A DNA stretch of 17,096 nucleotides, taken from contig CAKSVQ010000037.1 of NCBI GenBank assembly GCA_934504065.1, positions 1-17,096 on the forward strand. Reading direction: 5' to 3'. A program made the position numbers and the translations under genes. The first letter of the stretch is position 1. Each line of letters begins with the position of its first letter. The notes beneath the pieces were generated by a model. The model did not search any database. It had not been told where the DNA came from and saw only the letters and a list, made by a program, of their open reading frames with translations. Below are positions 998-16,980 of the stretch, piece after piece. Source of the DNA: an uncultured Dysosmobacter sp. GTDB lineage: Bacteria > Bacillota > Clostridia > Oscillospirales > Oscillospiraceae.

Positions 998-1058
998 AAT
1001 ATTCCCTTCTTTCCGGGGTAGTGTCTGTATTTTTATGAAAACTATACGCGCCGCGGCC

Positions 1059-1087
1059 TTTCCTTTTCCGGTGTCTCATGCTATACT
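1059..1087 (+). promoter_or_regulatory. Probable promoter of the proBAC operon
   Basis: TTTCCT (1059-1064) and TATACT (1082-1087) are separated by 17 bases. The -10 matches the sigma-70/sigma-A consensus at five of six positions; the -35 is weak. The predicted transcript starts about 25-30 bases before the proB GTG. No proline-responsive leader or T-box could be recognised in so short a leader. Confidence 0.5.
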
Positions 1088-1120
1088 GATATATCATTTT
1101 TGAAACCGGGAGCTGATACC

Positions 1121-3186: not shown

Positions 3187-3213
3187 AGCACCGGGAAAGG
3201 AGCATGGAAGACC

Positions 3214-4035: not shown

Positions 4036-4044
4036 ATCTCTGTT

Positions 4045-4086
4045 AAAAAAGGAAGGAGACAGCGAAAGCTGTCTCCTTCCTTTTTT
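4045..4086. terminator. Perfect bidirectional terminator between proC and the NSS transporter
   Basis: GGAAGGAGACAGC (4051-4063) and GCTGTCTCCTTCC (4068-4080) form a perfect 13-bp stem closed by a GAAA tetraloop. AAAAAA flanks it on the left and TTTTTT on the right. On either strand the hairpin is therefore followed by a U-run, so it can end proBAC (plus) and the convergent transporter gene (minus). Confidence 0.95.
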
Positions 4087-4092
4087 GTAAAT

Positions 4093-5538
4093 TTACTTTT
4101 TATTACGGTGGGCCATCAGCACCAGCAACGCGGCAGTCACGGTGCAGACGCCGATCTTCCAGCCCGTGGTGGGCAGGCCCTGAATCAGAATAACCAGAAT
4201 CAAAATGGGAAGGATCACAGAAAAATAGACCTTCATGGCCTTCCGTCCGGCGGGGCTTTCCGGCAGCTTCAGGCCGTTTCCGGTGTTGGCCTCGGCCAGA
4301 TAGTTGTCAAAACCCCAGCCCCATTTGGAAACGCAGAACAGCAGGTAGACCAGCGAGCCGATGGGCAGTAACAGATTAGAGACGATGAAGTCCTCGCTGT
4401 CCAGCACGTCCTTTCCAAGGAAGGGGTGGAAGCCTGCCCAGAGGTTATAGCCCAGCACGCAGGGCATGCTGGCGATCAGTACGAATACGCCGTTGATCAG
4501 CACGGCCTTTTTCCGGTCCCAGCCGAAATTATCAATGCAGGAGGCCAGCAGGTTTTCAAACACCGCGATAACAGTGGAGAAGCTGGCAAAGGTCATGAAC
4601 AGGAAGAACAGCGCGCCCCACAGGCGGCCGCCTGCCATGTTCGCGAACACCTTCGGCAGCGTCATGAAAATCAGCGGCGGGCCGGCATTGGGTTCCACAT
4701 TGAAGGAAAAGCAGGCCGGGAAGATGATAAGGCCGCTCATCAGTGCGACGAACGTATCCAGACAGCAGATGCGCACGGACTCTCCGGCAAGGGTGTGGTC
4801 CTTGCTCATGTAGCTGCCGAAGATCTCCATGGCGGCAATGCCGAGACTGAGGGTGAAGAACGCCTGATTCATGGCGGCGGTGACAACGGAGCCAAGGCCT
4901 ACCTCCTTTGCCCGCTGGAGATCGGGCAGAAGATAGAACTTCACGCCCTCCGCTGCACCGGGCAGCAGCAGGCTGTGCACGGCCAGCACCACGATCAGCA
5001 CCAGCAGGCCCAGCATCATCACCTTGGTAATGCGCTCCAGACCATTTTGCAGGCCGAAAGAGCAGACAAAGAACCCGGCCAGCACCGTCAGCACCATCCA
5101 CAGAGTCATTTCGGCGGGGCTGGCCAGCATGGCGCCGAACACGCCGTCAATGGCGTTGCCTTCCAGCCCGGTGAACGTTCCGGTGGCAAATTTGAAGAAA
5201 TACCCCAGCATCCAGCCGGAGACCGTGGTGTAGTACATCATCAGCATATAGCAGCCGATCACGCAGAACCAGCCGTGGATGTGCCAGCGGGAGCCGGAGG
5301 GCTCCAGCGCCCGATAGCCGAGGACCGCGCTCTTGCGGCTGGCGCGGCCGACGGCCAGCTCCATGCTGAGGATGGGCACACCCATCAGCGCCAGCGACAA
5401 CAGGTAGAACAGCACGAACAGTCCGCCGCCGTTTGCTCCGGTGACGTAGGGGAATTTCCAGACGTTGCCGATGCCGATGGCGCATCCGGCACTGACCAGA
5501 AGAAAGCCCAGCCGGGATTGGAAGTTTTCACGTTTCAT
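4093..5538 (-). CDS. Sodium-dependent transporter, NSS (SNF/LeuT) family
   Basis: A 481-residue inner-membrane symporter of the LeuT/MhsT/TnaT group, which imports amino acids or related solutes with sodium. Transmembrane helix 1 carries the family signature SAGCAIGIGNVWKFPYVTGANGGG, split here as SAGCAIGIGNVWKFPY plus VTGANGGG, containing the unwound Na/substrate-binding region. Helix 2 has GVPILSMELAVGR. About twelve hydrophobic segments can be counted; helix 6 is around NQAFFTLSLGIAAMEIFGSYM and helix 8 around FMTFASFSTVIAVFENLLA, where the second sodium site is expected. The start at 5538 has AGGAG seven bases upstream. It is convergent with proC and has its own promoter and a 5' leader hairpin. 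The substrate cannot be assigned; neighbours (proline synthesis, adenine deaminase) do not decide it. Confidence 0.93.
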   Translation of the reverse strand: MKRENFQSRLGFLLVSAGCAIGIGNVWKFPYVTGANGGGLFVLFYLLSLALMGVPILSMELAVGRASRKSAVLGYRALEPSGSRWHIHGWFCVIGCYMLMMYYTTVSGWMLGYFFKFATGTFTGLEGNAIDGVFGAMLASPAEMTLWMVLTVLAGFFVCSFGLQNGLERITKVMMLGLLVLIVVLAVHSLLLPGAAEGVKFYLLPDLQRAKEVGLGSVVTAAMNQAFFTLSLGIAAMEIFGSYMSKDHTLAGESVRICCLDTFVALMSGLIIFPACFSFNVEPNAGPPLIFMTLPKVFANMAGGRLWGALFFLFMTFASFSTVIAVFENLLASCIDNFGWDRKKAVLINGVFVLIASMPCVLGYNLWAGFHPFLGKDVLDSEDFIVSNLLLPIGSLVYLLFCVSKWGWGFDNYLAEANTGNGLKLPESPAGRKAMKVYFSVILPILILVILIQGLPTTGWKIGVCTVTAALLVLMAHRNKK

Positions 5539-5563
5539 GAGGTATCTCCTTACTCATAATCAA

Positions 5564-5587
5564 ACCGCCCCCAAAAAAGGGGACGGT
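5564..5587 (-). promoter_or_regulatory. Leader stem-loop of the NSS transporter mRNA
   Basis: On the minus-strand RNA, ACCGUCCCC and GGGGGCGGU pair over nine positions (one U-G wobble) around a UUUUUU loop. On the plus strand the same position would be an A-C mismatch, so the structure favours the transporter transcript. It begins only a few bases after the predicted transcription start and ends about 25 bases before the ATG. It may protect the 5' end, or act as a weak attenuator since UUUGAUUAU follows. Confidence 0.5.
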
Positions 5588-5591
5588 CTTT

Positions 5592-5620
5592 ATGGTAGCG
5601 GACCAGTATTGGAAAGTCAA
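5592..5620 (-). promoter_or_regulatory. Probable promoter of the NSS transporter
   Basis: Read on the minus strand, TTGACT (5615-5620) and TACCAT (5592-5597) are 17 bases apart. The -35 matches consensus at five of six positions, the -10 at four. It places the transcript start at about 5585-5590, directly at the leader stem-loop. Confidence 0.5.
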
Positions 5621-5703
5621 TGGCTTTAAAGGGAAAAAGCACAAAAACACCTGCCGAAATTCGATACTATCATCAGAAAAAGTTATACTACAAGATGAGA
5701 GAG

Positions 5704-5729
5704 CAAAGCGGGCCATTCGGCCCGCTTTG
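5704..5729 (-). terminator. Probable terminator of adeC
   Basis: CAAAGCGGGCC and GGCCCGCTTTG form a perfect 11-bp stem with an ATTC loop, about 28 bases past the adeC stop. The downstream side on the minus strand reads CTCTCTCATC, so the U-run is poor apart from the UUUG inside the stem. Placement and stem strength support a terminator. Confidence 0.65.
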
Positions 5730-5756
5730 TGATTTGATATATGGTGTATATGGCAG

Positions 5757-7481
5757 TTATACATAACTCTGACTGGTCACATCGAACACGCCGCGGGTGG
5801 TGATGCGCAGAGAGGGGATGACGGGCAGGGCCATGAAGCTCAGCGTCATAAACGGGTCGATGCCCGGGTTCACACCCAGCTCATGGGCCACGGTCTTGGC
5901 CTGCTCCAGCTTTTCGTTGACGGTGACAAGGGGTTCATCGCTCATGATGCCCGCAATGGACAGCGGTACCTCGGCAGTGCTTCCGCCCTTGTCCCACACC
6001 ACGATGCCGCCGTTCAGCTCCACCACACGGTTGACCGCGGCGGCCATGTCGGCTTCGTTGGTGCCTACCACGATGATGTTATGGGAATCGTGGGAGATGG
6101 AGGTGGCCACCGCGCCGGATTTCAGGCCATAGCCCTGCAAAAAGCCGATGCCGATGTGGTGGGTGTTTTTGTGGCGCTCTACCACGGCGATTTTCAGGAT
6201 GTCGTATTCCACGTCGATCCGGTCGGAATATCCGGCGTCCACGGTGGTGATCTCGCCGTTCACCATGCCGATCACGCCGCGGGGACGGCGCTCGGTAAAG
6301 TCCGCCGCCGTCAGTGCGCCCACATGGAAGGTGGCGTGGGCGCGGTCGGTCAGATACTGGTCGATGGAGGGGGCGGGGAAGTCCTTGACTGTGCCATGGT
6401 CCACCATCAGCTCGCCACGCTTATAGACCCGCTCGATTTGGAAGTTCTGGAAATTGTCGATGATGACAAAATCGCCCAGATAGCCAGGGGCAATGGCGCC
6501 GCGATTGTTCAAAAGGAAATACCGGGCGGCGTTGTGGCAGGCCACCTTGACTGCGGTGATGGGATCAGCACCCAGCGCAATGGCTTTTTTCACGATGTAG
6601 TCAATGTGCCCCTTTTCCAGCAGGTCGTTGGGGTGCTTATCGTCCGTGCAGAACATACAGCGCTCACTGTATTTGTCGCACAGCAGGGGGACCAGCGCCT
6701 CCAGATTCCGGGCGGCGGTGCCCTCCCGAATCATGATGAACTGCCCACGCTCCAGCTTGGCAATGGCGTCTTGCAGGTCGTGGCACTCATGGTCGGAATA
6801 TACTCCGGCGGCAATGTAGGCGTTGAGGTCATTGTCCTTGAGGTCGGGGGCGTGGCCGTCGATTTTCTTGTGGTGGGCCTGCGCCGCCACGATCTTCTCC
6901 ACGCACTGTTCATCCCCGGCGATGGTGCCCACAAAGTTCATCATCTCTGCAAGGCCCAGCACCCGGGGGTGGTCATAAAAGCTGTCGATAGCCCGATAGT
7001 CCAGAATCGCGCCGGATTCGTCCAGCGGCGTGGCCGGAACGCAGGAGGGCAGCATGAACTGCACATCCACTGGAAGGCCCTCTGTGGCCTGCAGCATATA
7101 TTCAATGCCGTCGGTCCCCATGACGTTGGCGATCTCGTGGGGATCGGTGATGACGGTGGTGGTGCCGTGGGGCAGCACGGCTTTTACAAATTCCCGGGGG
7201 GAGACCAGCGAGCTTTCCAGATGGATGTGGGCGTCCAAAAAGCCGGGCAGCACGATCTTGCCGGAGCAGTCCACCTCGGTCTCGCCGGAATAGCAGCCCA
7301 TGCCGACGATCAGCCCCTCGGCCACGGCAATGTCCGCCGTGCACAGCTGGTTTGCAAAGACGTTGACGTAGGTGGCGTTTTTCAAAACCAGATCCGCTTT
7401 TTCCCGCCCTGCCGCCGCGTTGATGATGCGGCGTTTTTTGATCAGCTTCCGGTTGATCTTGCCCGCGTAACTCTCAGACAT
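5757..7481 (-). CDS. adeC: Adenine deaminase
   Basis: Hydrolyses adenine to hypoxanthine and ammonia, feeding purine salvage or degradation in the cytosol. The 574-residue protein has the usual length of the AdeC/Ade family of amidohydrolases. Metal-site and signature motifs are intact: LPGFLDAHIHLESS (His85, His87), TDPHEIANVMG, GLAEMMNFVG with Glu179, KKIDGHAPDL (His210), GVYSDHECHD (His231), MIREGTAARN and CTDDKHPNDLL (Asp280). The C-terminal domain contains AVATSISHDSHNIIVVGTNE, also typical of the family. The ATG at 7481 has AGGAG seven bases upstream. It has its own promoter and terminator and lies 227 bases downstream of the hydantoinase gene, so it is probably transcribed alone. I looked for a purine riboswitch in its leader and saw none. 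Confidence 0.97.
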   Translation of the reverse strand: MSESYAGKINRKLIKKRRIINAAAGREKADLVLKNATYVNVFANQLCTADIAVAEGLIVGMGCYSGETEVDCSGKIVLPGFLDAHIHLESSLVSPREFVKAVLPHGTTTVITDPHEIANVMGTDGIEYMLQATEGLPVDVQFMLPSCVPATPLDESGAILDYRAIDSFYDHPRVLGLAEMMNFVGTIAGDEQCVEKIVAAQAHHKKIDGHAPDLKDNDLNAYIAAGVYSDHECHDLQDAIAKLERGQFIMIREGTAARNLEALVPLLCDKYSERCMFCTDDKHPNDLLEKGHIDYIVKKAIALGADPITAVKVACHNAARYFLLNNRGAIAPGYLGDFVIIDNFQNFQIERVYKRGELMVDHGTVKDFPAPSIDQYLTDRAHATFHVGALTAADFTERRPRGVIGMVNGEITTVDAGYSDRIDVEYDILKIAVVERHKNTHHIGIGFLQGYGLKSGAVATSISHDSHNIIVVGTNEADMAAAVNRVVELNGGIVVWDKGGSTAEVPLSIAGIMSDEPLVTVNEKLEQAKTVAHELGVNPGIDPFMTLSFMALPVIPSLRITTRGVFDVTSQSYV

Positions 7482-7558
7482 GGGATCACTCCTTCAAATG
7501 AATTGATATTAAATTGATTTATGATTAACATAAACAATAGTAATATCTTATTGGAAAG

Positions 7559-7587
7559 AGTATACGGCAAAAATAGCGGTTTGTCCA
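7559..7587 (-). promoter_or_regulatory. Probable promoter of adeC
   Basis: On the minus strand TGGACA (7582-7587) and TATACT (7559-7564) are 17 bases apart, each five of six to the sigma-A consensus. The transcript would start near 7552, giving an AT-rich leader of about 70 bases. Confidence 0.6.
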
Positions 7588-7640
7588 TGGAAAAAACGGC
7601 GAAATTTTCCTGATTTTCTTGGCAGGAACGGAATACGAAA

Positions 7641-7675
7641 CCCCTCCCTGCCGTTTCATAAGCGGCGGGGAGGGG
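7641..7675 (-). terminator. Probable terminator of the hydantoinase gene
   Basis: CCCCTCCCTGCCG (7641-7653) and CGGCGGGGAGGGG (7663-7675) form a 13-position stem with a nine-base loop. One position is an A-C mismatch on the minus-strand RNA (a U-G pair on plus). On the minus strand it is followed by TTTCGTATTCC. It lies about 35 bases past the hydantoinase stop and separates that gene from the adeC promoter. Confidence 0.7.
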
Positions 7676-7708
7676 GGCATCGCCAAACTTTCGGATCGTC
7701 TCAACTGT

Positions 7709-9085
7709 TTACAGGGCGCACTTGCCGCGGGAGAGGTACTGGCCATGGGGCGTTTCGTCCAGCACCTTGCCGTTTTCCACGGCAAGACGGCCCCGCAGCC
7801 ACACCTGTCGGATGCCGCCTGCGGTGACGAAGCCCTCGTAGGGATTGTAGTCCACATTGTCCACGCAGTCCTCCGCACGGATGACGTGGCTCAGCTCGGG
7901 ATCATAAACCACGATGTCGGCATCCGCGCCGGGAAGCAGGTTGCCCTTGCGGGGAAACAGGCCATAGAGCTTGGCCGGATTCTCACTCAGGGCCATGCAC
8001 ATCCGCTGGGCAGTGATCTTCTTAGCGGCTACACCGTAGGACCAGATCAGTTCGCCCCGGGTCTCCACACCGGGCAGGCCGCCGGGAATCTTGGTGAAGT
8101 CGTCCCGGCCCGCGTCCTTCTGTGCCAGCGTGAAAGAGCAGTGGTCAGTGGAAACGGTCTGGATCTCGCCCCGGCGCAGCGCCTTCCACAGCACGGCCTG
8201 CTGGCTTTTATCCCGGATGGGCGGTGCGCAGACATAGCGGGCGGCCTTGGAGTACTCCTCGTTGAAATACACGCTGTCGTCCAGCAGCAGGTACTGCGGG
8301 CAGGTCTCCACATACACGGTCTGCCCGCGGTCGCGGGCGTGCTGCACTTCCTTGAGCGCTTCTTCGTTGGTCAGGTGGACGATGACCACCGGAGCCTGCG
8401 CCGCCTGCGCAATGCGCAGAAGACGGCTGACGGCCTCGGCCTCCAGATAGGGCGGACGGGTCAGAGGATGGCAGGCCGGGGAGAACTGTCCCGCATTTTT
8501 CCGCTCGGCGATCATTCCGTCGATCACCCCGGCGTTTTCACAGTGCACACCGCAGATGCCGCCCAGCGTTTTCAGCTCTTTCAGCGCCCAGTACAGGTCC
8601 CGGTCGCCCAGCAGCATGGCAGGATAGGTCATATACATTTTGAACGAGGAAACGCCCAGCCGGAACATGTCCGGCAGCTCTGCCCGGATGGACTCGTTCC
8701 AGTCGTCAATGGTCATATGAAAACCATAGTCGCAGAAGGTGCGTCCATCGGCCTTCCGGTGCCACAGCTCCAGACCGTGATGCAGGCTTTCACCCTTGTT
8801 GGGGCAGGCAAAGTCGATGACAGTGGTGGTGCCGCCCCGCAGCGCGGCCCGGCTTCCAGTGAAGAAATCGTCTGCCGTGGTGGTGTTGCAGACATCCAGA
8901 TCAAAGTGGGTATGGGCGTCGATCCAGCCGGGGAAGAGCAGACAGCCGGATACGTCCACGACCTGTTGGGCATCCGCTTTCAGATTCTTTCCGGACCGGA
9001 CGACCTTTCCGTCCTCCACCAGCAGGTCGGCCCGCTTCATCCCCTTGCCGGAGACCACCGTGCCGCCTTTGAACAGTGTGCGCAT
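7709..9085 (-). CDS. hydA: Dihydropyrimidinase / hydantoinase
   Basis: A cytosolic binuclear-zinc cyclic amidohydrolase that opens dihydropyrimidine, hydantoin or related rings to N-carbamoyl amino acids. The protein has 458 residues, close to the family norm. Visible metal ligands are FPGWIDAHTHFDL (His58, His60), SSFKMYMTYP (Lys149, the carboxylated lysine, with Tyr154 near the active site), GVHCEN (His181), IVHLTN (His237) and VSTDHCSF (Asp314). The segment IPGGLPGVETR is also characteristic. I moved the start to the ATG at 9085, because GGAGGT lies seven bases before it; an in-frame ATG at 9106 has no site and would sit almost at the edge of the inverted-repeat element. The leader is largely that element. 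No dihydropyrimidine dehydrogenase or carbamoylase gene is present here, so the true substrate is open. Allantoinase is less likely by motif. Confidence 0.9.
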   Translation of the reverse strand: MRTLFKGGTVVSGKGMKRADLLVEDGKVVRSGKNLKADAQQVVDVSGCLLFPGWIDAHTHFDLDVCNTTTADDFFTGSRAALRGGTTTVIDFACPNKGESLHHGLELWHRKADGRTFCDYGFHMTIDDWNESIRAELPDMFRLGVSSFKMYMTYPAMLLGDRDLYWALKELKTLGGICGVHCENAGVIDGMIAERKNAGQFSPACHPLTRPPYLEAEAVSRLLRIAQAAQAPVVIVHLTNEEALKEVQHARDRGQTVYVETCPQYLLLDDSVYFNEEYSKAARYVCAPPIRDKSQQAVLWKALRRGEIQTVSTDHCSFTLAQKDAGRDDFTKIPGGLPGVETRGELIWSYGVAAKKITAQRMCMALSENPAKLYGLFPRKGNLLPGADADIVVYDPELSHVIRAEDCVDNVDYNPYEGFVTAGGIRQVWLRGRLAVENGKVLDETPHGQYLSRGKCAL

Positions 9086-9110
9086 AAAACCGACCTCCAT
9101 GTTCATGTGT

Positions 9111-9282
9111 TACCATCAGTTGATAAGGGCAGATACGCTTTCCGGCGGCCAAAATAACCGCTGGTATTGTCATCGTCCTCGGCTTGCGCCAGCAAGCCTT
9201 CGTCCTCTTCCGCGCCAGCGTCCATCTTCGCTCGCCGGAAAGTCGTTCGAAAAACCGTATTTGCCCTTGTCAACTGATGGTA
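9111..9282. mobile_element. MITE-like element with 27-bp terminal inverted repeats
   Basis: The ends, beginning TACCATCAGTTGATAAGGGC (9111-9137) and, read from the other strand, TACCATCAGTTGACAAGGGC (9256-9282), match at 25 of 27 positions. Further in, CTTTCCGGCG (9138-9147) pairs with CGCCGGAAAG (9233-9242). A perfect small hairpin, GGCTTGC/GCAAGCC, lies at the centre (9181-9198), flanked by direct CGTCCTC repeats. The 172-bp element has no coding frame of its own, so it would need an outside transposase. The outer TA at each end would fit a TA target duplication as in IS630/mariner-type MITEs, but this is a guess. It lies between the hydantoinase ribosome site and a TATGAT (9293-9298, minus strand) that could be its -10, so it would be copied into the leader as a long stem-loop. 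Confidence 0.7.
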
Positions 9283-9319: not shown

Positions 9320-9349
9320 GAGCGCCCGGTTTTTCAGGACCGGGCGCTC
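9320..9349 (-). terminator. Terminator of the SLH/beta-helix gene pair
   Basis: GAGCGCCCGGT (9320-9330) and ACCGGGCGCTC (9339-9349) form a perfect 11-bp stem with an eight-base loop, 45 bases past the SLH-protein stop. On the minus strand it is followed by CCCCTTTTCTTCTTT, a pyrimidine-rich tail. It isolates the surface-protein transcript from the hydantoinase gene. Confidence 0.8.
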
Positions 9350-9394: not shown

Positions 9395-11452
9395 TCAGGA
9401 AAATTTCTGGGCAAAACGCATCAGGATCGCTGCCGTCTGGGCGCGGGTGGAGGTGGCGCGGGGAGAAAGCGCGCCGTCCGCTGTACCGTTCACCAGTCCC
9501 GCGGCGTTGGCCCACGCCATAGCGGGCCTTGCGTAACCGCTGATCGCGGTCTGGTCGGCAAATCCGGGCAGGTCCGCGGCACCGGAGAGGTCATAGCCCT
9601 TATACTGGGCGTAGCGGTAAAGGATCGCCGCCAGCTGCTGACGGGCCACTGCCTCGTTGGGGGCGAAGCAGCCGTTTTCATAGCCGCTGACGATTCCATT
9701 TGCCGCCGCCCATGCGGCGGCCTTTTCGCAGTAGCTGCCAGCCGAAATATCCGTAAAGGGACAGGTGGTGGAAACGGCGCTTTCGCCGTCCAGCCGATAG
9801 AGGATCGTCACCAGCATTCCCCGGGTGATCGTAACATTGGGAGAGAAGGTATCTCCGCTGGTGCCGTTCATCCATCCGTTCCGGGATACATAGCGGATGG
9901 CCTCATAAAACCAGTCGTTGGAAGTCACATCGCTGAAATTGCCGTTTTGCGCATTTCCGCTGCCAGCGGGCGGCTGTGCTGCATTGGAGCCGTCCGGCAG
10001 GGCCGGGGGAGTGGAATCGCCGGGGGCCGCAGGAGGCTGCTGGCTGCCGTCAGGCTGCGGGCCGTTTCCGCCGCCGGGGCGCTGTCCGCCGCCCATGCCG
10101 CCGGAGGTGGCTGTGCCCGTCTGAGCCGTGGCGGTGGCCGCGCTGGCAGAGCCACTGTAAAGGTCATAGCTGCTGGAGGAGGTCAGCTTGGAGGAAGAGA
10201 AGAAGAGATAATTGGTATTGCACACCGCCGTGCCGCTGTACACGGTATTGCCGGAGGAATCCTTCACGGTGAAGCTGCCGCCTTTGGAGATCAGGGCAGA
10301 ACCGCCGCGGCTGCCGGGCTGAGCCATGCCGCCGGAGGAGCCAAAGGCCACATGGGGCTGGCTGGCGCTGATCTGCACCTCCATGCCGCTGCTGCCGCCC
10401 GCGGCAAGGACCGTGCCGCCGGAGACGGTCAGAACGCCGTCGGCATCCAGGGGTTGGTTATCAGCGGTGTTGGCCGTCCAGACGGCCACCGTGCCGCCGG
10501 AGATGGTGAGCGTGCCGTTGGAGTCAAAGCCGTCACCGCTGGAGGAATAGGCGTTGATGGTGCCGCCGGAAATGTTCATGGAGAAGGCATAGCCGCTGAG
10601 GTCGGAGTTGGCGGCGTTCAGGCAGTCATCCGACGCGGTGATGTCGATGTCACCGGAGAAGATGTTCAGCGTGGCGGCCTCAAGACCCTCATAGCAGTCC
10701 GTGATGGTGATGGTGGGACCGTCGGTGCCCGCTGCGCCCACGTTCATTTCATAGTCGCAGTGGATGGCGTCGTCCCCGGCGGAGATGGTGAGCGTGCCGC
10801 TTTCCACATCCAACTGCTGCTCGGCGTTGATGGCGTCGTTCGCCGGGGCGTTGATGTTCAGTGTGACATCCTGAATAGTCAGGGAGGCGTCTCCCTCTTC
10901 AGCGGTGGTGGTGCCGGATTTGATGCCGTTCTTGCCCTTGGCGTTGATGTTCAGTGTGCCGGAGCCGCGGATGGTGACATCGGAACCGTCCTTACATTTG
11001 ATGACGGCGTTTTCGGCATCCTCATTATCCGGGTAGTTGTCGTCATTGTTCTGGGTGCTGTCCGTCAGGGTGTTGGTGGTGCCGCTGGCGGCCACAATGG
11101 TCACCTCTGTGGACTTGTTGCAGGTGATGGGGGCGGTGTCAGTGCTGGTCAGTGTCAGGCCGTCCAGCACCAGTGTCACGTCAGTGGTACCTTTTTTGAT
11201 TTTGATGGAGCCGTCGGTGCAGCTGCCGGAGACCAGATACGTGCCGGAGCTCTGGATGGTCAGGTCCGTGCCGCTGATCTTGTAGTCCGTGTAGGTTCCG
11301 TCCTCCGCTGTGATGCCGCTGTTGGAGAAGGTGAATTCCGTCGCGCCTTTGGCAGTATACTCGCTGGCGGCGGCCATGGCGGTGGGCAGCAGTGACAGGG
11401 TCAGTGCCGCTGCCACTGCACCGGAAAAAAGCTTTTTCGGGATCGTTTTCAT
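9395..11452 (-). CDS. SLH-anchored surface protein with Cthe_2159-like carbohydrate-binding region
   Basis: A 685-residue exported protein. It has a signal peptide (MKTIPKKLFSGAVAAALTLS, cleavage near AMA-A or AAA-S at 27-29). Residues about 30-450 are a repetitive Thr/Gly/Asp-rich beta-helix with phrases such as GSGTLNINAKGKNGIKSG, AGDDAIHCD, ASDDCLNAAN and SSGDGFDSNGTLTISGG, typical of the DUF4353/Cthe_2159 polysaccharide-binding family. A Pro/Gly-rich linker follows (about 451-504). Three S-layer homology repeats end the protein (about 505-555, 566-612, 631-684; for example FSDVTSNDWFYEAIRYVSRN and FADQTAISGYARPAMAWANA), which bind cell-wall polymers. The ATG at 11452 has AAAGGAT upstream at an 11-base spacing; the frame extends 23 codons further but without signal-peptide character. 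It lies 43 bases after the lipoprotein gene, probably in one transcript. The ligand is unknown. Confidence 0.88.
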   Translation of the reverse strand: MKTIPKKLFSGAVAAALTLSLLPTAMAAASEYTAKGATEFTFSNSGITAEDGTYTDYKISGTDLTIQSSGTYLVSGSCTDGSIKIKKGTTDVTLVLDGLTLTSTDTAPITCNKSTEVTIVAASGTTNTLTDSTQNNDDNYPDNEDAENAVIKCKDGSDVTIRGSGTLNINAKGKNGIKSGTTTAEEGDASLTIQDVTLNINAPANDAINAEQQLDVESGTLTISAGDDAIHCDYEMNVGAAGTDGPTITITDCYEGLEAATLNIFSGDIDITASDDCLNAANSDLSGYAFSMNISGGTINAYSSSGDGFDSNGTLTISGGTVAVWTANTADNQPLDADGVLTVSGGTVLAAGGSSGMEVQISASQPHVAFGSSGGMAQPGSRGGSALISKGGSFTVKDSSGNTVYSGTAVCNTNYLFFSSSKLTSSSSYDLYSGSASAATATAQTGTATSGGMGGGQRPGGGNGPQPDGSQQPPAAPGDSTPPALPDGSNAAQPPAGSGNAQNGNFSDVTSNDWFYEAIRYVSRNGWMNGTSGDTFSPNVTITRGMLVTILYRLDGESAVSTTCPFTDISAGSYCEKAAAWAAANGIVSGYENGCFAPNEAVARQQLAAILYRYAQYKGYDLSGAADLPGFADQTAISGYARPAMAWANAAGLVNGTADGALSPRATSTRAQTAAILMRFAQKFS

Positions 11453-11495
11453 CGTATTCGTACATCCTTTCTGCAAGTTTATTGCCGCACGCGCC

Positions 11496-13343
11496 TTACC
11501 GCAGCACTGTGCCGTCGGCAAGGGTGATGGTGTAGCCGTTGAAGTTGATGGTGCCGTTGTTCGTTAGACTGGTGATCGTGCAGTCCCCGATGAGGTTCCA
11601 GACGCAGCCGCTGTCGATGGTGACGACCGCGTTATCAGAGACGGCGGCGCCCTCGGCATTTTCGATGATGTTGACCGTTCCGGTGAGCACGCTGCCGTTT
11701 GTAAGCGTCAGATCCAGCGTGGAAATGGTGTCCACCACGATGCTGCCCTCCAGCGCCTGCGCGTCGGCAGTGAAGTTCACCTGCGCGCCGTTGGCCCCGG
11801 CAGTGCCCCAGCCATGGCTGGCGCTGTTGCCCACTGCCCGCAGCAGGCAGGCGTCCGCATCCTCATTGTAGAGGGTCACGCCGGAAAGGGTCAGGACGCA
11901 GTGGGTGTTGGTCACGAAAAAGAGGTCGCCGTTTTTCCCGGTCAGGCTGCCCCCGGTCATAGAGAGGGTAGAGGTGCCCACATCCGCGTCGCCGCTCATG
12001 GACTGATAGATCATTACATTGTGGACGTTTTCATCGGAGCTGCTGCCCTTGGTGTCACTCATATTGCCGGAAACGGTGCAGCTATCCAGCGTGATGGAGT
12101 TCTTGCCCTCGATGACCAGGGCCTCGGAGTTGTTGGCGGTGAGGACGGCGCCCGTCACCGAAATATCCGCCGTGGAATAGACTGCCGGGGAATTGTAGCC
12201 ATTGGAGGTGTATGTTCCGCCTGCCACGTTCACCGTGCCGCCGCCCCGGTCAGAGCGGATGGCGGCGGAGGAATTGCCGGAGGTCTCCACGGTCAGGTCC
12301 TGCGCGTTGGTGGTGCCGCCTCCAGTGGTTTGAATGCCGCCGGAGTTATCCGCCGTGGTGGTGATGGTGGAATCGGAAATGTTGACGGTGGTGCCGCTGC
12401 CATAGCTGAACACGCCATTGCCGTTCTGGGCGGCGGAGGTGACCGTGGCATTTTGGATGGTGACCGTGGCCCCATTGGTGGCAAGCAGGGCTGCGTTCAT
12501 GCCGTAAAAGTCGCCGTCTTCGGTGTTGAAGGTAGATCCGGCGCTTTTGTCCACGCTCACGCCGCTGAGGGTGACGGTGGCTCCGTCAATGCGCAGGGCG
12601 TTTTCATCGTCCCCGGTGGAGAAATAGGAGAGGCCTTCATACACGCCGTCCTCGGCGATGGTGTTGGCACTGCTGCCCTGCGTGACCTCACCGCTTCCGC
12701 CGAAGCCGCCAGGGCCGCCCGTGCCGATGCTTACAATGGCGGCGGAGGTCACAGTGTTGTCTGTGTCCACCTCCACGGTCAGCACGTCGCCCACGGCGAT
12801 GTCATCCAGCGCGGCATCCTCACCGTTTTCCGTGATGTTGGCGTTGGTGAAGTCCAGCGTGACGGATTCCGTCCCGGCGGTGAAGCGCTTACCTGGCATG
12901 GAAGGAGCACTGCCGGACGGTGCTTCCGGCGGATTTCCGGAAGGGGCGCTGCCGCCGGGCTGCCCGGCGGGGGCGTTTTCATTGGAGACGCTGCCGTCCG
13001 GTTTCTCCGGCGGGGTCTGACCATTGCCCGCAGAGGGCGAGCCGCCCTCCGGCATCTCCGGCGGCGCTTCGCCCTCGTCGGTTGGGGCGGAGCCGTTACC
13101 GTCCGGCTTTTCCGGCGGAGTGCCTGTCTGGCCGCTCTGGTTGGGGGCGCTGGGGGCGGTTTCGGTTCCGCTATCTTCCAAAGTGCCCAGCAGCAGCGTG
13201 ACCGCGCTGCCGTCCACGGCGGAGACCTGCCCGGTGAGGGTGGTCTCATCGGCGGATGCTTCTGATGTTTGTGCGCCGCAGGCAGCAAGAGACGCTGCCA
13301 GCGCCGCCGCGCACAGAAGTGATGCCCATTTCTTTACTTTCAT
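11496..13343 (-). CDS. Beta-helix lipoprotein with Pro/Gly-rich insert
   Basis: A 615-residue exported lipoprotein. The N terminus (KVKKWASLLCAAALAASLAAC) has a lipobox ending at Cys22. Residues about 33-57 (TLTGQVSAVDGSAVTLLLGT) and 153-206 (AALDDIAVGDVLTVEVDTDN and neighbours) look like two halves of a DUF5666-like small beta-barrel. Between them lies a Pro/Gly/Ser-rich insert (about 60-150) with repeated PPEKPDG-type units at 76, 94, 111 and 138. Residues 225-615 are a right-handed beta-helix of NGATVTIQNATVTSA-type turns. The ATG at 13343 has AGGAGGT seven bases upstream; 29 upstream in-frame codons were rejected because they precede the signal peptide. It is the first gene of a minus-strand pair divergent from the VTC gene. 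It probably sits on the outer membrane face of the cell and acts with the SLH protein. No catalytic motif was recognised. Confidence 0.85.
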   Translation of the reverse strand: MKVKKWASLLCAAALAASLAACGAQTSEASADETTLTGQVSAVDGSAVTLLLGTLEDSGTETAPSAPNQSGQTGTPPEKPDGNGSAPTDEGEAPPEMPEGGSPSAGNGQTPPEKPDGSVSNENAPAGQPGGSAPSGNPPEAPSGSAPSMPGKRFTAGTESVTLDFTNANITENGEDAALDDIAVGDVLTVEVDTDNTVTSAAIVSIGTGGPGGFGGSGEVTQGSSANTIAEDGVYEGLSYFSTGDDENALRIDGATVTLSGVSVDKSAGSTFNTEDGDFYGMNAALLATNGATVTIQNATVTSAAQNGNGVFSYGSGTTVNISDSTITTTADNSGGIQTTGGGTTNAQDLTVETSGNSSAAIRSDRGGGTVNVAGGTYTSNGYNSPAVYSTADISVTGAVLTANNSEALVIEGKNSITLDSCTVSGNMSDTKGSSSDENVHNVMIYQSMSGDADVGTSTLSMTGGSLTGKNGDLFFVTNTHCVLTLSGVTLYNEDADACLLRAVGNSASHGWGTAGANGAQVNFTADAQALEGSIVVDTISTLDLTLTNGSVLTGTVNIIENAEGAAVSDNAVVTIDSGCVWNLIGDCTITSLTNNGTINFNGYTITLADGTVLR

Positions 13344-13425
13344 AGGAATGACCTCCTGTTTTCGTGTTTCGAACTGGAATGGGAGCCGCCGGACGGGTCC
13401 GGTAGGGTTCCTGCTTGATGGGCTT

Positions 13426-13431
13426 ATCATA
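13426..13431 (-). promoter_or_regulatory. Likely -10 box of the beta-helix protein transcript
   Basis: TATGAT on the minus strand, five of six to consensus, lies nine bases beyond the nearest TTTAGG box of the inverted repeat. No good -35 is present; the TTTAGG pair occupies that region, as expected for a promoter needing an OmpR-type activator. The leader to the ATG is about 75 bases and contains a small CCGGAC/GTCCGG palindrome at 13389-13402. Confidence 0.45.
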
Positions 13432-13438
13432 AAAGCGC

Positions 13439-13494
13439 AGCCTAAAAGAAACCTAAAGGATTTTCCGAAATTTTCTTTAGGTTTCTTTTAGGCT
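13439..13494. promoter_or_regulatory. Perfect 20-bp inverted repeat with paired TTTAGG boxes: probable response-regulator operator
   Basis: The right arm CTTTAGGTTTCTTTTAGGCT (13475-13494) is exactly the reverse complement of 13439-13458; 16 bases separate the arms. Each arm has two TTTAGG boxes whose starts are 11 bp apart, one helical turn: 13476-13481 and 13487-13492 on the plus strand, 13441-13446 and 13452-13457 on the minus strand. OmpR/PhoB-family regulators bind such direct repeats as head-to-tail dimers. Each arm points toward its own divergent gene, with a -10-like hexamer nine bases beyond it (TATGAT on minus; the weaker TAAGTT, 13502-13507, on plus). The natural candidate regulator is encoded at 14992. 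Confidence 0.65.
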
Positions 13495-13529
13495 GTCTTA
13501 GTAAGTTTTCATCAAAGGAGGTGCCGGAC

Positions 13530-14267
13530 ATGGCTGAACGGATTAAAAACTGCTTTGAACGTTATGAAAAAAAGTATCTGCTTACCCTGCCGCAGCAGCA
13601 GTTCCTGCTGGAGGGGATGCGGCCCCATATGCGGCGGGATGACTACGGCGAATATACCATTTGCAACATTTATTATGATACGGAGGACTGGCGTCTGATC
13701 CGCGCGTCGCTGGAAAAGCCTGTGTATAAGGAGAAACTGCGGGTGCGCAGCTATGGCGTTCCCGAAAAGGATGGAAGGGTCTTTGTAGAGCTGAAAAAGA
13801 AGTTTGACGGCGTGGTCTATAAGCGCCGCATCACGGTGGAGGCCGGGGAGGTGCAGCCGCTTCTGCGCGGCGGGCTTCCGCCGGAGCGCTTTGGCCAGAT
13901 CGGACAGGAGATCGGTTGGTTTCAGCGCTTTTACCGCACAAGGCCCCGCGTGTTCATTGGCTATGACCGTCTTGCTTTTGCGGGCAAGGACGCGCCGGAC
14001 CTGCGCATCACCTTTGACACGGGGCTGCGCTGGCGGGACACGGAACTGGACCTTTGCCGGGGGGACCACGGCGCGGCACTGATGCCGCCTGGGCAGGTGC
14101 TGATGGAGGTCAAAATTCCGGGCAGCTGCCCGCTGTGGCTCAGCCGCCTGCTCTCTGAGGCAGGGGCCTTTCCCACATCCTATTCCAAATATGGTGCCTG
14201 TTACCGGGATTTCATTCTGCCCGGGACCGGGAAAACAACAAAACAGGAGGAAGATTACTGTGCTTAA
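13530..14267 (+). CDS. VTC-domain protein, polyphosphate-polymerase-like
   Basis: A 245-residue soluble tunnel-fold protein (CYTH/VTC superfamily). In yeast, the Vtc4 domain makes polyphosphate from ATP; bacterial members are annotated as polyphosphate polymerase domain proteins mainly by homology. Expected charged tunnel motifs are present: ERYEKKYLL (Arg11, Glu13, Lys15), ICNIYYDTED, KLRVRSYG (Arg71, Arg73), VFVELKKKFDGVVYKRR (Glu87, Lys89), IGYDRLAF (Arg147), LRITFDTGLRWR (Arg159), LMEVKIPG (Glu193, Lys195) and SYSKYGACY (Lys220). The fold's active-site residues therefore look intact. I chose the ATG at 13530 with AAAGGAGG seven bases upstream; the GTG at 13521 lies inside that site. The last eight bases overlap the DUF4956 start, suggesting coupled translation and a complex with that membrane protein. 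The polymer made is not proven. Confidence 0.9.
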   Translation: MAERIKNCFERYEKKYLLTLPQQQFLLEGMRPHMRRDDYGEYTICNIYYDTEDWRLIRASLEKPVYKEKLRVRSYGVPEKDGRVFVELKKKFDGVVYKRRITVEAGEVQPLLRGGLPPERFGQIGQEIGWFQRFYRTRPRVFIGYDRLAFAGKDAPDLRITFDTGLRWRDTELDLCRGDHGAALMPPGQVLMEVKIPGSCPLWLSRLLSEAGAFPTSYSKYGACYRDFILPGTGKTTKQEEDYCA

Positions 14268-14922
14268 CTCAATTCTTGGGACGGAGATCACGCTGTCCGC
14301 TTTTTTGCTTTGTACCGCTGTTTCCCTGCTGCTGGGGATCTGCACCGCCTGCGTGGGAACATACCGCTTCCGCTCCACCTCCGGCTTTGCCGTCACGCTG
14401 GCCATTCTGCCAGCGGTGGTGCAGCTGGTCATCATGCTGGTCAACGGTAATCTGGGGGCCGGGGTGGCCGTGGCCGGAGCCTTCGGGCTGGTGCGCTTTC
14501 GCTCCGCTCCCGGCACGGCCCGGGAGATCGGGACGCTGTTTCTGGCCATGGCGCTGGGTCTTGCCACGGGGATGGGGTACATCGGCCTTGCGTGCATCAG
14601 CTTTATCATTCTGGCTGCGGCCACGCTGGTGCTGACCGCCCTGCGTTTTGGACAGCATTCCGCCATGGAGCGCACACTGAAGATCACCATTCCGGAAACA
14701 CTGGACTATGAGGGGTTATTTGACGACCTGCTGAAAAAATACACGAAAGAATATTCCCTTTTACAGGTCAAGACCGCCAATATGGGCACGCTCTATGAGC
14801 TGGAATACCGCATTATGCTGCCGCAGGAGACGGTGCCGAGGGCATTTTTGGATGCGCTGCGCTGCCGGAACGGGAACCTGAACATCGTCTGTGGCCGGGT
14901 AACGGAAAAGGACGCGCTTTGA
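14260..14922 (+). CDS. DUF4956 membrane protein, partner of the VTC enzyme
   Basis: A 220-residue integral membrane protein of uncharacterised family DUF4956. Residues 10-130 form about four to five hydrophobic helices. They include the family's most conserved stretch, AGAFGLVRFRSAPGTAREIG, with Arg79, Arg81 and Arg88 set between membrane segments, then AMALGLATGMGYIGLA. Residues about 138-218 are a small cytosolic alpha/beta domain (RTLKITIPETLDYEGLFDDL to NIVCGRV) that resembles an ACT/ferredoxin-like fold. That layout recalls MgtC-type proteins. The GTG at 14260 has AGGAGG nine bases upstream and overlaps the VTC gene by eight bases. VTC and DUF4956 genes are, to my knowledge, often adjacent in bacteria, so a membrane anchor or polymer-export role for this protein is a reasonable inference. 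The cluster usually also has a CotH kinase, which is absent here. Confidence 0.85.
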   Translation: MLNSILGTEITLSAFLLCTAVSLLLGICTACVGTYRFRSTSGFAVTLAILPAVVQLVIMLVNGNLGAGVAVAGAFGLVRFRSAPGTAREIGTLFLAMALGLATGMGYIGLACISFIILAAATLVLTALRFGQHSAMERTLKITIPETLDYEGLFDDLLKKYTKEYSLLQVKTANMGTLYELEYRIMLPQETVPRAFLDALRCRNGNLNIVCGRVTEKDAL

Positions 14923-14927
14923 AGTTC

Positions 14928-14956
14928 TTGCTTTTCCGGCGCTCTTTCGCTATACT
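14928..14956 (+). promoter_or_regulatory. Promoter of the two-component system
   Basis: TTGCTT (14928-14933) and TATACT (14951-14956) are separated by exactly 17 bases, a good sigma-A promoter. It begins a few bases after the DUF4956 stop. The regulator and kinase can thus be made independently of the VTC transcript. No TTTAGG box is seen here, so autoregulation would have to come through read-through from the VTC promoter. Confidence 0.65.
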
Positions 14957-14991
14957 ACAAGCAATTTGAAAAGGAAACGCGGGGGAAAACC

Positions 14992-15666
14992 ATGAAACTG
15001 CTGATCGCGGAGGATGAACTGGATCTGGCCGAGGCACTGACGGTCTTTTTTGAACGGAACCACTTCGCGGTGGACGCGGTCCATAACGGCTTTGACGCCT
15101 ATGAATACGCTTCCGCCGGGGAATATGACGCGGTGATCCTGGACGTGATGATGCCGAAGATGGACGGTATCCAAGTGCTGGAAAAGCTGCGCGGCGAGGG
15201 GGTGAAGACCCCCATCATGATGCTGACGGCCAAGGGTGAAAAGGACGACCGCATCACGGGCTTCAACGCCGGAGCGGACGATTATCTGCCCAAGCCCTTT
15301 GACCCCGACGAGCTTTTGAGCCGGGTGCGGGCGATCCTACGGCGCAGCGAGGCCTATCGGCCCACGGTGCTCTCCTTTGGCGATGTGGCGCTGGACCCCG
15401 TCACCGGAGACCTTACCTGCGGAGAGAAGACCGTCCGCCTCAGCGGGCGGGAGTTTCAGATCATGGAGCTGTTCTTGCGCTCGCCCAGACAGGTCTTTTC
15501 CGCCGAACGTATCATGGAAAAGGTCTGGGGCTGGGACAATGAGGCGGAGATCAATGTGGTGTGGGTCAATATTTCCAACCTGCGCAAAAAGCTGAAGGCC
15601 ATTGGCTCCACGGTCTCTCTGCATGCCAATCGGGGGCTGGGGTATCTTTTGGAGGAACAGGCATGA
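14992..15666 (+). CDS. OmpR/PhoB-family response regulator
   Basis: A 224-residue cytosolic transcription factor. The receiver domain (1-115) has the acidic pocket AEDE, the phospho-acceptor Asp51 in VILDVMMPKMDG, Thr79 in MLTAKGEKDD and Lys101 in DDYLPKPF. The C-terminal winged-helix domain (about 128-222) shows LSGREFQIMELFLRSPRQVF, the MEKVWGW segment, the recognition helix around NVVWVNISNLRKKL and the wing HANRGLGYLLE. The ATG at 14992 follows a GGGGG tract by about six bases. Its stop overlaps the kinase ATG in an ATGA, so the two are a cognate pair. The inverted repeat at 13439-13494 fits the direct-repeat binding mode of this family, so its likely targets are the divergent VTC and beta-helix transcripts. 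Confidence 0.95.
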   Translation: MKLLIAEDELDLAEALTVFFERNHFAVDAVHNGFDAYEYASAGEYDAVILDVMMPKMDGIQVLEKLRGEGVKTPIMMLTAKGEKDDRITGFNAGADDYLPKPFDPDELLSRVRAILRRSEAYRPTVLSFGDVALDPVTGDLTCGEKTVRLSGREFQIMELFLRSPRQVFSAERIMEKVWGWDNEAEINVVWVNISNLRKKLKAIGSTVSLHANRGLGYLLEEQA

Positions 15667-16928
15667 TCGGGCGGCTGCGGAATCGGTTCATCCGCATTGC
15701 CACGCTTTCCGTGGCGGCGGTGATGCTGCTGCTCACCGTGATTTTAAACGCGGCCAATTTCATCTCCACAGACGCCGACCTGCGGGATACCCTGACGCTG
15801 ATCTATGAAAACGAGGGGACGATCCCCACGGCGGCCCATGCCCCGGCGGATGACGGCAATGCGCCGCCGGATAAGCCGTCGGACGCGCCGCCGGGAGGCG
15901 GGCGCGGCGGCCCCTTTACCGTGGAAACGCCCTACTCCACCCGCTATTTCGTGCTGCGCTACCGGGATGACGGCACGCTGACCATGGCGGACCTTTCCAA
16001 GATCGCCGCAGTCTCGGAAGAGGACACGGGAGAATATCTGGCTGCGGCGGTGAGCCACGGCGCGGGATACGGATATTATGGGCAATACCGCTTTTTTGCG
16101 GCCCGCACAGGCAGTGACCGGAACATTGCCATTTTTCTGGACAGCTACCAGTCCCTCCGCGCTTTGAAGCTGGTGCTGGTGTGGTCGCTGGCGGCGGACG
16201 CGGCGTGTATTTTACTGGTGCTGCTGCTGGTGGTGCTGCTCTCCCGTCGGGCTATCGACCCGGTGGTGCGCAGTGCGGAGCGGCAAAAGCAGTTCATCAC
16301 CGATGCCAGTCATGAATTGAAAACGCCCATCACCGTCATTACCACCAGTTTAAAGGTGCTGGAAATGGACGTGGGCAAGCAGAAGTGGATCGACAAGGCG
16401 TTGGGGCAGACGGAAAAGCTGACCGGGCTTGTCAACTCGCTGGTGACCCTTTCCCGCATGGACGAGGAACAGTCGCCCCTACACATGGAGGAGTTCGCCA
16501 TCAGTGCCGCGCTGGGGGAAACAGTGGGATCCTTCCGGGAGTTTGCCCTGACGAAGGGCCATGCACTCAACGCGCAGATCGCCCCCGGCCTGCGTTATCG
16601 CGGAGATGAATACGCGGTGCGGCAGCTTGTTTCCATCCTGCTGGATAACGCCGTGAAATACGCGCTGCCGGACACGCCGATTTCCGTTTCTCTGGAAAAA
16701 GGGCGCAGGGGCGTGATCCTGCGCACCTCCAACCGTTGCAGCGACGCGCAGTCCATCGACACGGCGAAGCTGTTCGACCGTTTTTACCGGGCCGATCCAT
16801 CCCGCAGCACGCAGGGGGGCTTTGGCATCGGACTGTCCATCGCCCGCGCCATCGCGGAGGGGCATAAGGGTTCGATCAGCGTGCGGTGCAGCGGAGATAC
16901 CATCACATTCACGGCAGAACTGAAATAA
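15663..16928 (+). CDS. Membrane sensor histidine kinase
   Basis: A 421-residue kinase with TM1 (about 12-34), an extracytoplasmic sensor (35-166), TM2 (168-193), a HisKA domain with His217 in ITDASHELKTPITVI, and an HATPase domain (about 310-421). The N box LLDNAVKYA (Asn329), F region LFDRFYRADPSRS and glycine-rich GGFGIGLSIARAIAEGH are intact. The usual DxGxG box is replaced by RTSNRCSDAQ, a variant I believe recurs in clostridial kinases of this type. The sensor begins with a Pro/Gly-rich tract (about 64-84, including PPDKPSDAPPGGG) resembling repeats in the nearby lipoprotein. I chose the ATG at 15663, four bases into the regulator stop, with GGAGG upstream. The signal is unknown; a cell-surface or polymer cue is plausible from context. 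Confidence 0.94.
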   Translation: MIGRLRNRFIRIATLSVAAVMLLLTVILNAANFISTDADLRDTLTLIYENEGTIPTAAHAPADDGNAPPDKPSDAPPGGGRGGPFTVETPYSTRYFVLRYRDDGTLTMADLSKIAAVSEEDTGEYLAAAVSHGAGYGYYGQYRFFAARTGSDRNIAIFLDSYQSLRALKLVLVWSLAADAACILLVLLLVVLLSRRAIDPVVRSAERQKQFITDASHELKTPITVITTSLKVLEMDVGKQKWIDKALGQTEKLTGLVNSLVTLSRMDEEQSPLHMEEFAISAALGETVGSFREFALTKGHALNAQIAPGLRYRGDEYAVRQLVSILLDNAVKYALPDTPISVSLEKGRRGVILRTSNRCSDAQSIDTAKLFDRFYRADPSRSTQGGFGIGLSIARAIAEGHKGSISVRCSGDTITFTAELK

Positions 16929-16940
16929 TAGCCTGATATA

Positions 16941-16980
16941 CAAACTGAAGCCCTGCGGAACACCGCAGGGCTTCAGTTTG
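16941..16980 (+). terminator. Terminator after the histidine kinase
   Basis: CAAACTGAAGCCCTGCGG (16941-16958) and its exact complement (16963-16980) form a perfect 18-bp stem with an AACA loop, twelve bases past the stop. The tail TTGAAAAAG has no real U-run on the plus strand. The upstream side read on the minus strand (TATATCAGGC) is also weak, so it may be a terminator or a stable 3'-end structure. Confidence 0.7.

Follow-up and report, generated by a model that had tools for sequence, protein, structure and literature searches.

A VTC–DUF4956 gene core, its alternative exported partners and a candidate shared operator in an uncultured Dysosmobacter

What might a triphosphate-tunnel enzyme, a DUF4956 membrane protein, a sensor kinase with its response regulator and two exported proteins be doing together at one bacterial locus? 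The question is raised by a stretch of 17,096 nucleotides from an uncultured Dysosmobacter sp. (GenBank assembly GCA_934504065.1, contig CAKSVQ010000037.1; the whole stretch is called the window below), for which an initial annotation had proposed a six-gene envelope system that makes a phosphate polymer at the membrane and displays proteins binding or organizing it at the wall. That interpretation survives in part: co-occurrence of the genes, an operator and conserved tunnel residues speak for it, but a fixed membership of six genes does not stand. The reading preferred here, to which a probability of roughly 0.45 can be given, is that the locus may encode a membrane-coupled phosphate-polymer synthase with one kind of exported client and its own switch. 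Sequence comparisons back the pairing of VTC with DUF4956 as a core, an exclusive and repeatedly swapped client, kinship of DUF4956 with MgtC, the tunnel residues and an operator in the window's subtype. Papers given by PMC number are cited from excerpts of their text. All six genes are present; the evidence for each is as follows:

9395..11452, minus strand: Cthe_2159 surface protein of the beta-helix kind, 685 amino acids long and carrying three SLH repeats, the module's exported partner (PF14262, E 4.8e-50, 170.7 bits against a cut-off of 25.8; PF00395, three stretches; PDB 4peu, E 1.1e-16)
11496..13343, minus strand: lipoprotein of 615 amino acids that may form a beta-helix, encoded first in the minus-strand operon (lipobox LAAC in the translation; PF13229 Beta_helix, E 0.001, sub-threshold)
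13530..14267, plus strand: VTC-domain (triphosphate tunnel) enzyme, predicted polyphosphate polymerase (PF09359, E 1.5e-36, 126.6 bits against a cut-off of 23)
14260..14922, plus strand: DUF4956, MgtC/SapB-like membrane protein with five helices and an ACT-like domain (PF16316, E 1.2e-14)
14992..15666, plus strand: OmpR-type response regulator (PF00072, PF00486)
15663..16928, plus strand: sensor histidine kinase whose extracellular part contains a Pro/Gly-rich insert (PF00512, PF02518; alignment of 30 kinases)

The VTC and DUF4956 genes overlap by 8 nucleotides and the regulator and kinase genes by 4. The exported proteins had been described as a divergent pair; their genes are in tandem to each other on the minus strand, and it is together that they diverge from the VTC operon. 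The PDB entry matched by the surface protein, 4peu, is presumably the structure of Cthe_2159 itself.

The core pair and its exported partners

Conserved co-occurrence beyond close relatives, whose absence the initial annotation had named as a ground for refuting its proposal, was found. Among the best 80 of 534 loci nearest to the window's DUF4956, a set skewed towards the window's own subtype, a VTC cluster is present in 73, Cthe_2159 in 52, the kinase in 44 and the regulator in 39. A class sample of 148 genomes was drawn from the class of Pseudoflavonifractor phocaeensis, and each family was searched across the same genomes to reduce bias. DUF4956 gave 91 matches there (including three under the cut-off) in 73 genomes and VTC gave 95 in 76; Cthe_2159 was present in 57 genomes and CotH, the other exported family, in 58, with 56 and 57 of them, respectively, above the curated cut-off and used. 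A VTC gene lies within 1.5 kilobases (kb) of 84 of the 91 DUF4956 matches, in 83 cases upstream on the same strand. When the above-cut-off frames of the two exported families (74 for Cthe_2159, with one stretch per frame, and 106 for CotH) were placed around the 91 DUF4956 matches, 26 had Cthe_2159 within 5 kb, 38 had CotH, 27 had neither and none had both, and these counts were unchanged at 3 kb and 8 kb (Fisher p 3e-8 for exclusivity, kinship ignored). A second sample of 149 genomes, from the phylum of another relative, covered DUF4956, Cthe_2159 and CotH, with VTC outside that search; its 25 DUF4956 matches comprise 6 with Cthe_2159, 15 with CotH, 4 with neither and again none with both. 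The two samples overlap in at least G032, G037 and G041, and once G032 and G041 (both DUF4956 holders) are removed the counts for Cthe_2159, CotH and both are 5, 14 and 0 of 23. A Cthe_2159-like protein is indeed a partner, as had been proposed, but not the sole one, and the counts point to a rule under which one core would have at most one kind of exported partner.

The same separation is seen within single genomes. Seven (G031, G040, G065, G118, G187, G268 and G269) carry DUF4956 of both kinds, each beside its own partner; G031, G040 and G065 hold full VTC–DUF4956 pairs for each partner kind, and the Cthe_2159-linked DUF4956 of G118 has no adjoining VTC. On a tree of 86 joined VTC and DUF4956 rows (the window and 85 of the 91 loci, the other six being without VTC within 5 kb), made by a quick method without bootstrap and with the long branches L229 and L230 placed uncertainly, the partner switches between Cthe_2159 and CotH at least seven times; L226 was labelled CotH by hand on this tree because of a stop inside its frame. 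Many Clostridia of gut and rumen carry VTC and DUF4956 as one unit, which often has a switch of its own. As side observations, a single contig of G268 (G268:C5:157309-180308) bears two DUF4956 genes some 18 kb from each other, one linked to CotH and the other to Cthe_2159, and at L167 and L188 two CotH genes bracket one core, one per side, the same partner being doubled and mixing never seen.

At the level of whole genomes, VTC is present in 50 of the 56 Cthe_2159 genomes and 53 of the 57 CotH genomes of the class sample, and DUF4956 in 10 of the 12 Cthe_2159 genomes and 18 of the 21 CotH genomes of the second. Among 14 named control genomes, compared for presence only and with linkage outside the comparison, VTC and DUF4956 occur in the same three (Bacteroides ihuae, Corynebacterium glutamicum and Methanosarcina acetivorans), Cthe_2159 only in Bacteroides ihuae, and CotH in Corynebacterium glutamicum, Methanosarcina acetivorans and Bacillus subtilis. 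That the surface genes are chance neighbours, standing beside the core without a functional link, is very improbable: a rough uniform estimate expects about 0.3 Cthe_2159 links, against the 26 of 74 frames seen within 5 kb of DUF4956, and about 0.6 CotH links against 38, the association of VTC with Cthe_2159 has a genome-level p of 1e-13 (uncorrected for kinship), and the operator boxes described below face both operons. What could be said for chance is that, of 22 VTC-paired cores without a partner, 10 have at least 4 kb on both sides and still carry neither client. Partnerless cores such as L181, L194 and L196 belong to a set whose neighbours (all 118 scanned) include DXP reductoisomerase, cytidylyltransferase and M50 peptidase families, three times each, and they possibly represent a different use of the VTC–DUF4956 pair.

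The exact arrangement of the window is not general. Although usual in its nearest relatives, Cthe_2159 on the opposite strand upstream of the core occurs once among the 26 linked loci of the class sample, the others being on the same strand, downstream in 20 and upstream in 5; the divergent layout is a feature of the window's subtype. Nor does the lipoprotein recur. Five of the six window genes are found together in relatives, but homologues of the lipoprotein occur in only 9 of the 148 genomes and, by coordinates, never beside DUF4956, so that it was rejected as a core member and matched part of the system, and is a local addition. A search of it against PDB gave no match. One homologue (G133:C32:10517-13892) lies near a Cthe_2159 frame on a contig without a DUF4956 match.

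Simple motif patterns pick out a lipobox in 48 of 76 Cthe_2159 proteins and a C-terminal hydrophobic helix in 17 of 37 CotH proteins, so that most of the former and nearly half of the latter look membrane-held. The window differs in having a wall-anchored partner and a separate lipoprotein, SLH repeats being present in three of the 76 (the window, L024 and L048). Pro/Gly-rich segments shared by kinase and surface proteins were considered as an argument and dropped, since 28 of 30 kinases have three or more prolines in their best 30-residue stretch but only 12 of 76 Cthe_2159 proteins have such a segment by pattern. In a further explanation, the core would supply activated phosphate that is attached covalently to the client, Cthe_2159 and CotH being substrates. 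A single client for each core, its repeated swapping and the keeping of separate cores within a genome would suit an enzyme and its substrate as well as an enzyme and its receptor; the two clients, however, come from different Pfam families, and the Pro/Gly-rich tag, the object of the sole shared-tag search made, is not general, which renders this explanation quite improbable.

The tunnel enzyme and its membrane partner

A profile of bacterial VTC proteins aligns with yeast Vtc4 at E 2.9e-23. Residues R71, R73, K89, K98, R147, R159, E193 and K195 are the same in all 86 sequences compared, and the first four are, as read by hand from the alignment, the counterparts of Vtc4 R264, R266, K281 and K294, of which we take K281 and K294 to be catalytic. 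Vtc4 was inactive when R264 and R266 were mutated jointly with E426 (PMC9911596). By the criteria that PMC4641920 gives for telling polymerases from hydrolases, the family is mixed: of the three diagnostic places out of four that could be set, two (Arg11 and Lys195) hold a basic residue in place of the Glu of the plant hydrolase, and the third (Glu13) is acidic. Positions 11 and 13 were placed by the Vtc4 profile alignment, and 195 by an E-x-K pattern only, because that alignment ends before the stretch concerned. We infer polyphosphate as the product. The idea that VTC stands in for PPK1 was dropped, as PPK1 is present independently of VTC (27 of 76 genomes with VTC against 18 of 72 without, p 0.21).

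VTC may be bound to DUF4956. Both domains are carried by 24 of the best 120 matches, and among seven joins inspected P0125, P0127, P0129, P0137 and P0170 retain the VTC end motif. As proof of a complex these fusions were downgraded, given that two of the seven joins are apparently frameshifted and the sources are of metagenome type. The yeast VTC complex (Vtc4 with Vtc1/Vtc3) offers a parallel: the tunnel domains are homologous, the two arginines of the inactivation test are kept, and the window enzyme, too, is linked to a membrane protein, here by gene overlap. Unlike its yeast counterpart, the window enzyme has about 245 amino acids and a single Pfam domain, and therefore no SPX domain, and its membrane partner is MgtC-like instead of having the channel helices of Vtc1 (PMC9911596).

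Profile comparison shows DUF4956 to be a relative of the MgtC/SapB family. A profile of 101 DUF4956 rows aligned by hhalign with one of 29 MgtC rows (taken by a glycine motif from L111-L140, minus L137 and L138) over 203 columns, with probability 99.3 and a one-pair E-value of 4e-20. Taken separately, the transmembrane part gave a one-pair E-value of 1.7e-16, against 0.12 for its reversed decoy, and the C-terminal part no more than 0.001; values for reversed decoys and for unrelated profiles stayed at 0.059 or worse. At E <= 0.01 the Pfam MgtC model itself recognizes 14 of 83 DUF4956 rows, the best at 1.1e-4, but not the window protein; run on genomes, it matched DUF4956 places in four, all under its cut-off. 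A structure model of the window protein (mean predicted local distance difference test score, pLDDT, 81.5) has five helices and an ACT-like domain, the kind of C-terminal domain expected of the MgtC/SapB family. Foldseek returned nothing at E <= 0.001; in the fold search with DUF4956 models the rows displayed cover the ACT-like half, and the absence of a match for the membrane part carries no information. Searches against PDB yielded one chance-level row with the profile (E 1.9) and three rows, none better than E 0.47, with the single sequence. DUF4956 differs from MgtC/SapB proteins in its regular pairing with VTC and in a near-invariant R-F-R motif (R79 in 99 of 101, R81 in 98 of 101), which would lie on the cytoplasmic side if helices are counted from the ACT domain. 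The function of DUF4956 had been called undescribed, which is too strong, as the Streptococcus intermedius member has both a deletion phenotype (see below) and a domain description, an MgtC transmembrane part with an ACT domain (PMC12345266).

The kinship with MgtC also speaks for a regulatory explanation, according to which DUF4956, acting like MgtC from within the membrane, would damp ATP synthesis or tune phosphate signalling, VTC being a phosphate-dependent partner or a hydrolase and the surface proteins outputs of a stress switch. Salmonella MgtC acts on ATP synthase and PhoR (cited in PMC12345266), the window regulator is of OmpR/PhoB type, and VTC keeps a glutamate, Glu13, as hydrolases do. 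This account, which we regard as rather doubtful, leaves unexplained why one of two clients and never both accompanies a core, and likewise why single genomes keep separate cores for each client.

The control region and its candidate regulator

A divergent control region shared by the two operons had been claimed; it is real and more specific than that, consisting of a perfect 21-nucleotide inverted repeat (13438-13458 / 13475-13495) whose boxes face both operons. Terminators had been placed at both outer ends; the first is found by the terminator scan, while the second is a stem in the sequence that the scan does not list:

13441..13458, minus strand: operator box towards the lipoprotein/Cthe_2159 operon (CTTTAGGTTTCTTTTAGG on the minus strand, 11-base-pair period; putative regulator site)
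13475..13492, plus strand: operator box towards the VTC operon (CTTTAGGTTTCTTTTAGG, 11-base-pair period; putative regulator site)
9320..9349, minus strand: intrinsic terminator of the minus-strand operon (11-pair stem with 9 G-C pairs, T-rich tail)
16941..16980, no strand assigned: stem-loop 3' of the kinase gene, terminator-like, no clean T-run

Operator scans each covered 32 regulator-linked loci (the window and 31 of the 80), and the half-site was picked after inspection of these same loci. A CTTTAGGT-N3-CTTTAGGT-like box (at least 13 of 16 positions) lies upstream of VTC in 31 of the 32, and 25 have two inverted copies, one in each orientation. Of the loci with a single box or none, L001, L033, L052 and L061 are without an opposite-strand Cthe_2159 in the available stretch (upstream sequence being short in L052, the sole locus without any box, and in L061) and in L027 Cthe_2159 shares the strand of the core and lies downstream of it; L019 and L048 do not fit this pattern. 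In 28 of the 32 loci the upstream region contains a 6-mer repeated exactly at period 11, against a mean of 2.2 and a maximum of 7 in shuffled sequence. The strict 12-base operator core matched 18 times in 15 genomes, 17 times at the locus; as these genomes were selected as locus carriers, matches at the locus are expected and the informative part is the single match elsewhere (G006:C35:37478, L234). The same pattern read backwards as a control gave 14 matches, and therefore the specificity of the operator is one of place and not of count. Across the class sample, a period-11 repeat occurs in 37 of 83 regions upstream of VTC, whereas the remaining periods between 7 and 23 yield 4 to 15 and shuffles a mean of 7.7 and a maximum of 15. 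Seven loci with a second type of kinase and regulator (L028, L037, L046, L054, L056, L070 and L074) carry TTTCGT-N5-TTTCGT, or one base off, upstream of VTC, again with an 11-base-pair period; L025 and L043 share that layout and have no exact repeat upstream of VTC.

OmpR-type regulators use direct repeats with an 11-base-pair period, and the window boxes show this feature upstream of both operons; the regulator encoded beside the core probably binds them. It scores 174.7 bits with the PhoB model, below the cut-off, as is the top-scoring model, RppA. Among 469 neighbours no more than 4.5 kb from the core, 31 are regulator genes, compared with 2 of 428 farther out. The extracellular insert of the kinase (15840-15915) is rich in Pro, Gly and Asp and variable in length and sequence; in the window it resembles the linkers of the lipoprotein and the SLH protein. 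As for the surroundings, the terminator scan found 9 sites in the window against 7.9 in shuffles, and the site at 9320-9349 rests on its position and strength. Rfam at its gathering threshold and a tRNA scan gave no matches in the window DNA. Positions 1-9200 hold unrelated upstream genes, namely for a ClpP-like protein and a sodium:neurotransmitter-type transporter (by Pfam) and, by eye only, proline biosynthesis genes and two amidohydrolase-like genes.

Known relatives and possible function

The nearest described relatives are Gram-positive Pel loci, which carry CotH, a polyphosphate polymerase and DUF4956 (PMC7112168). Those of Streptococcus intermedius (SIR_1592-1594) share with the window the same core pair, a DUF4956 of MgtC plus ACT type and an exported partner (PMC12345266, PMC7112168), whereas the window has Cthe_2159 in place of CotH, together with its own two-component system and operator. 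Neither a Pel protein nor CotH was matched in the eight window proteins scanned; the core is flanked by the lipoprotein and the regulator, and the window stops 168 bases past the kinase gene. According to the excerpts of PMC12345266, the trio is not found outside Pel loci, but the 38 of 91 DUF4956 matches linked to CotH, with PelG seen just 3 times in the 107 of 192 neighbour proteins scanned at these loci, speak against such confinement. VTC genes of Clostridium perfringens NELoc-2 lie beside genes annotated as 'tubulin/FtsZ', CotH and a glycosyl transferase (PMC2879425); the 'tubulin' genes are probably DUF4956, and the locus, unlike the window, is of CotH type.

These relatives raise the possibility that the core tunes or decorates an exopolysaccharide (Pel or a GT2 polymer), to which the surface protein would bind. 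Besides the presence of the trio within Pel loci, neighbours of CotH-type loci include DUF3492 glycosyltransferases (3) and chitin-synthase-like GT2 proteins (4) in addition to PelG, and Cthe_2159 of Clostridium thermocellum is reported to bind cellulose and polygalacturonate (PMC6712302). Yet no family of polysaccharide synthases is prominent among the 25 commonest families beside Cthe_2159-type loci (105 of 119 neighbour proteins scanned there), and no polysaccharide synthase was found in the eight window proteins scanned. In artificial sputum medium, S. intermedius deleted for the DUF4956 or the CotH homologue lost more than half of its aggregation, but Pel was still made (PMC12345266), and on balance an accessory role of this kind is unlikely. 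The VTC–DUF4956–CotH trio in Pel loci was thus already known, and what appears new is the Cthe_2159 version of the core, the exclusive partner swap and the operator, for which no description was found in the open-licence literature searched; excerpts of PMC5817204, PMC10503014, PMC10657179, PMC6514570 and PMC12526157 had no bearing on the swap.

Under the reading of the locus as a membrane-coupled phosphate-polymer synthase, the VTC enzyme would work at the inner membrane face, most likely making polyphosphate from ATP, and would be bound to the MgtC-like DUF4956, whose R-F-R motif would serve as polymer entry. The exported client, here an SLH-anchored Cthe_2159 beta-helix and elsewhere a CotH-family protein, would receive or organize the product outside the membrane. 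The kinase would sense a surface signal, and the regulator, acting on two inverted boxes, would switch both divergent operons jointly. Passage of the polymer through the membrane and its hand-over to the client are steps that we infer from sequence patterns, and the evidence as a whole suggests, but does not prove, that the core builds or hands over a phosphate polymer at the cell surface.

Several points weigh against this reading. MgtC proteins are not known to act as transporters. DUF4956 is absent from 2 of 12 Cthe_2159 genomes and 3 of 21 CotH genomes of the second sample, and 27 of the 91 DUF4956 matches of the class sample have neither partner within 5 kb, including the 10 VTC-paired cores with ample flanking sequence mentioned above. 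In the fusions P0131 and P0138 the VTC end motif is lost and the join appears to be frameshifted, and the fusions at large derive from metagenome-type sources. Position 13 of VTC is acidic in 85 of 86 sequences, which is hydrolase-like by the criteria of PMC4641920, and the literature searched yielded no enzymatic test of a bacterial VTC protein. Finally, no loss of aggregation is reported for the polyphosphate-polymerase homologue of S. intermedius in the excerpts of PMC12345266.

A bolder version, which is doubtful at present, would make VTC and DUF4956 a prokaryotic polyphosphate synthase-translocase that delivers polyphosphate to the outer face of the membrane, with one copy per client. 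CotH would take it as phosphoryl donor in the extracellular space, which lacks ATP, and Cthe_2159 would retain it in a matrix at the surface, perhaps together with calcium. If true, this would account for the mutual replacement of two unrelated exported families beside the same core and for their not sharing cores.

Four poorly understood families (bacterial VTC, DUF4956, CotH and Cthe_2159) would be joined here under a simple rule of one core with at most one kind of client. A system of one core and one client makes several matters testable, among them the product of bacterial VTC, the role of CotH 'spore coat kinases' in non-sporulating bacteria and the ligand of Cthe_2159 in vivo, and the client rule and operator yield direct predictions for swaps, deletions and gel-shift experiments. 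A membrane-coupled synthase at this locus would, moreover, tie MgtC-like membrane proteins to phosphate polymers.

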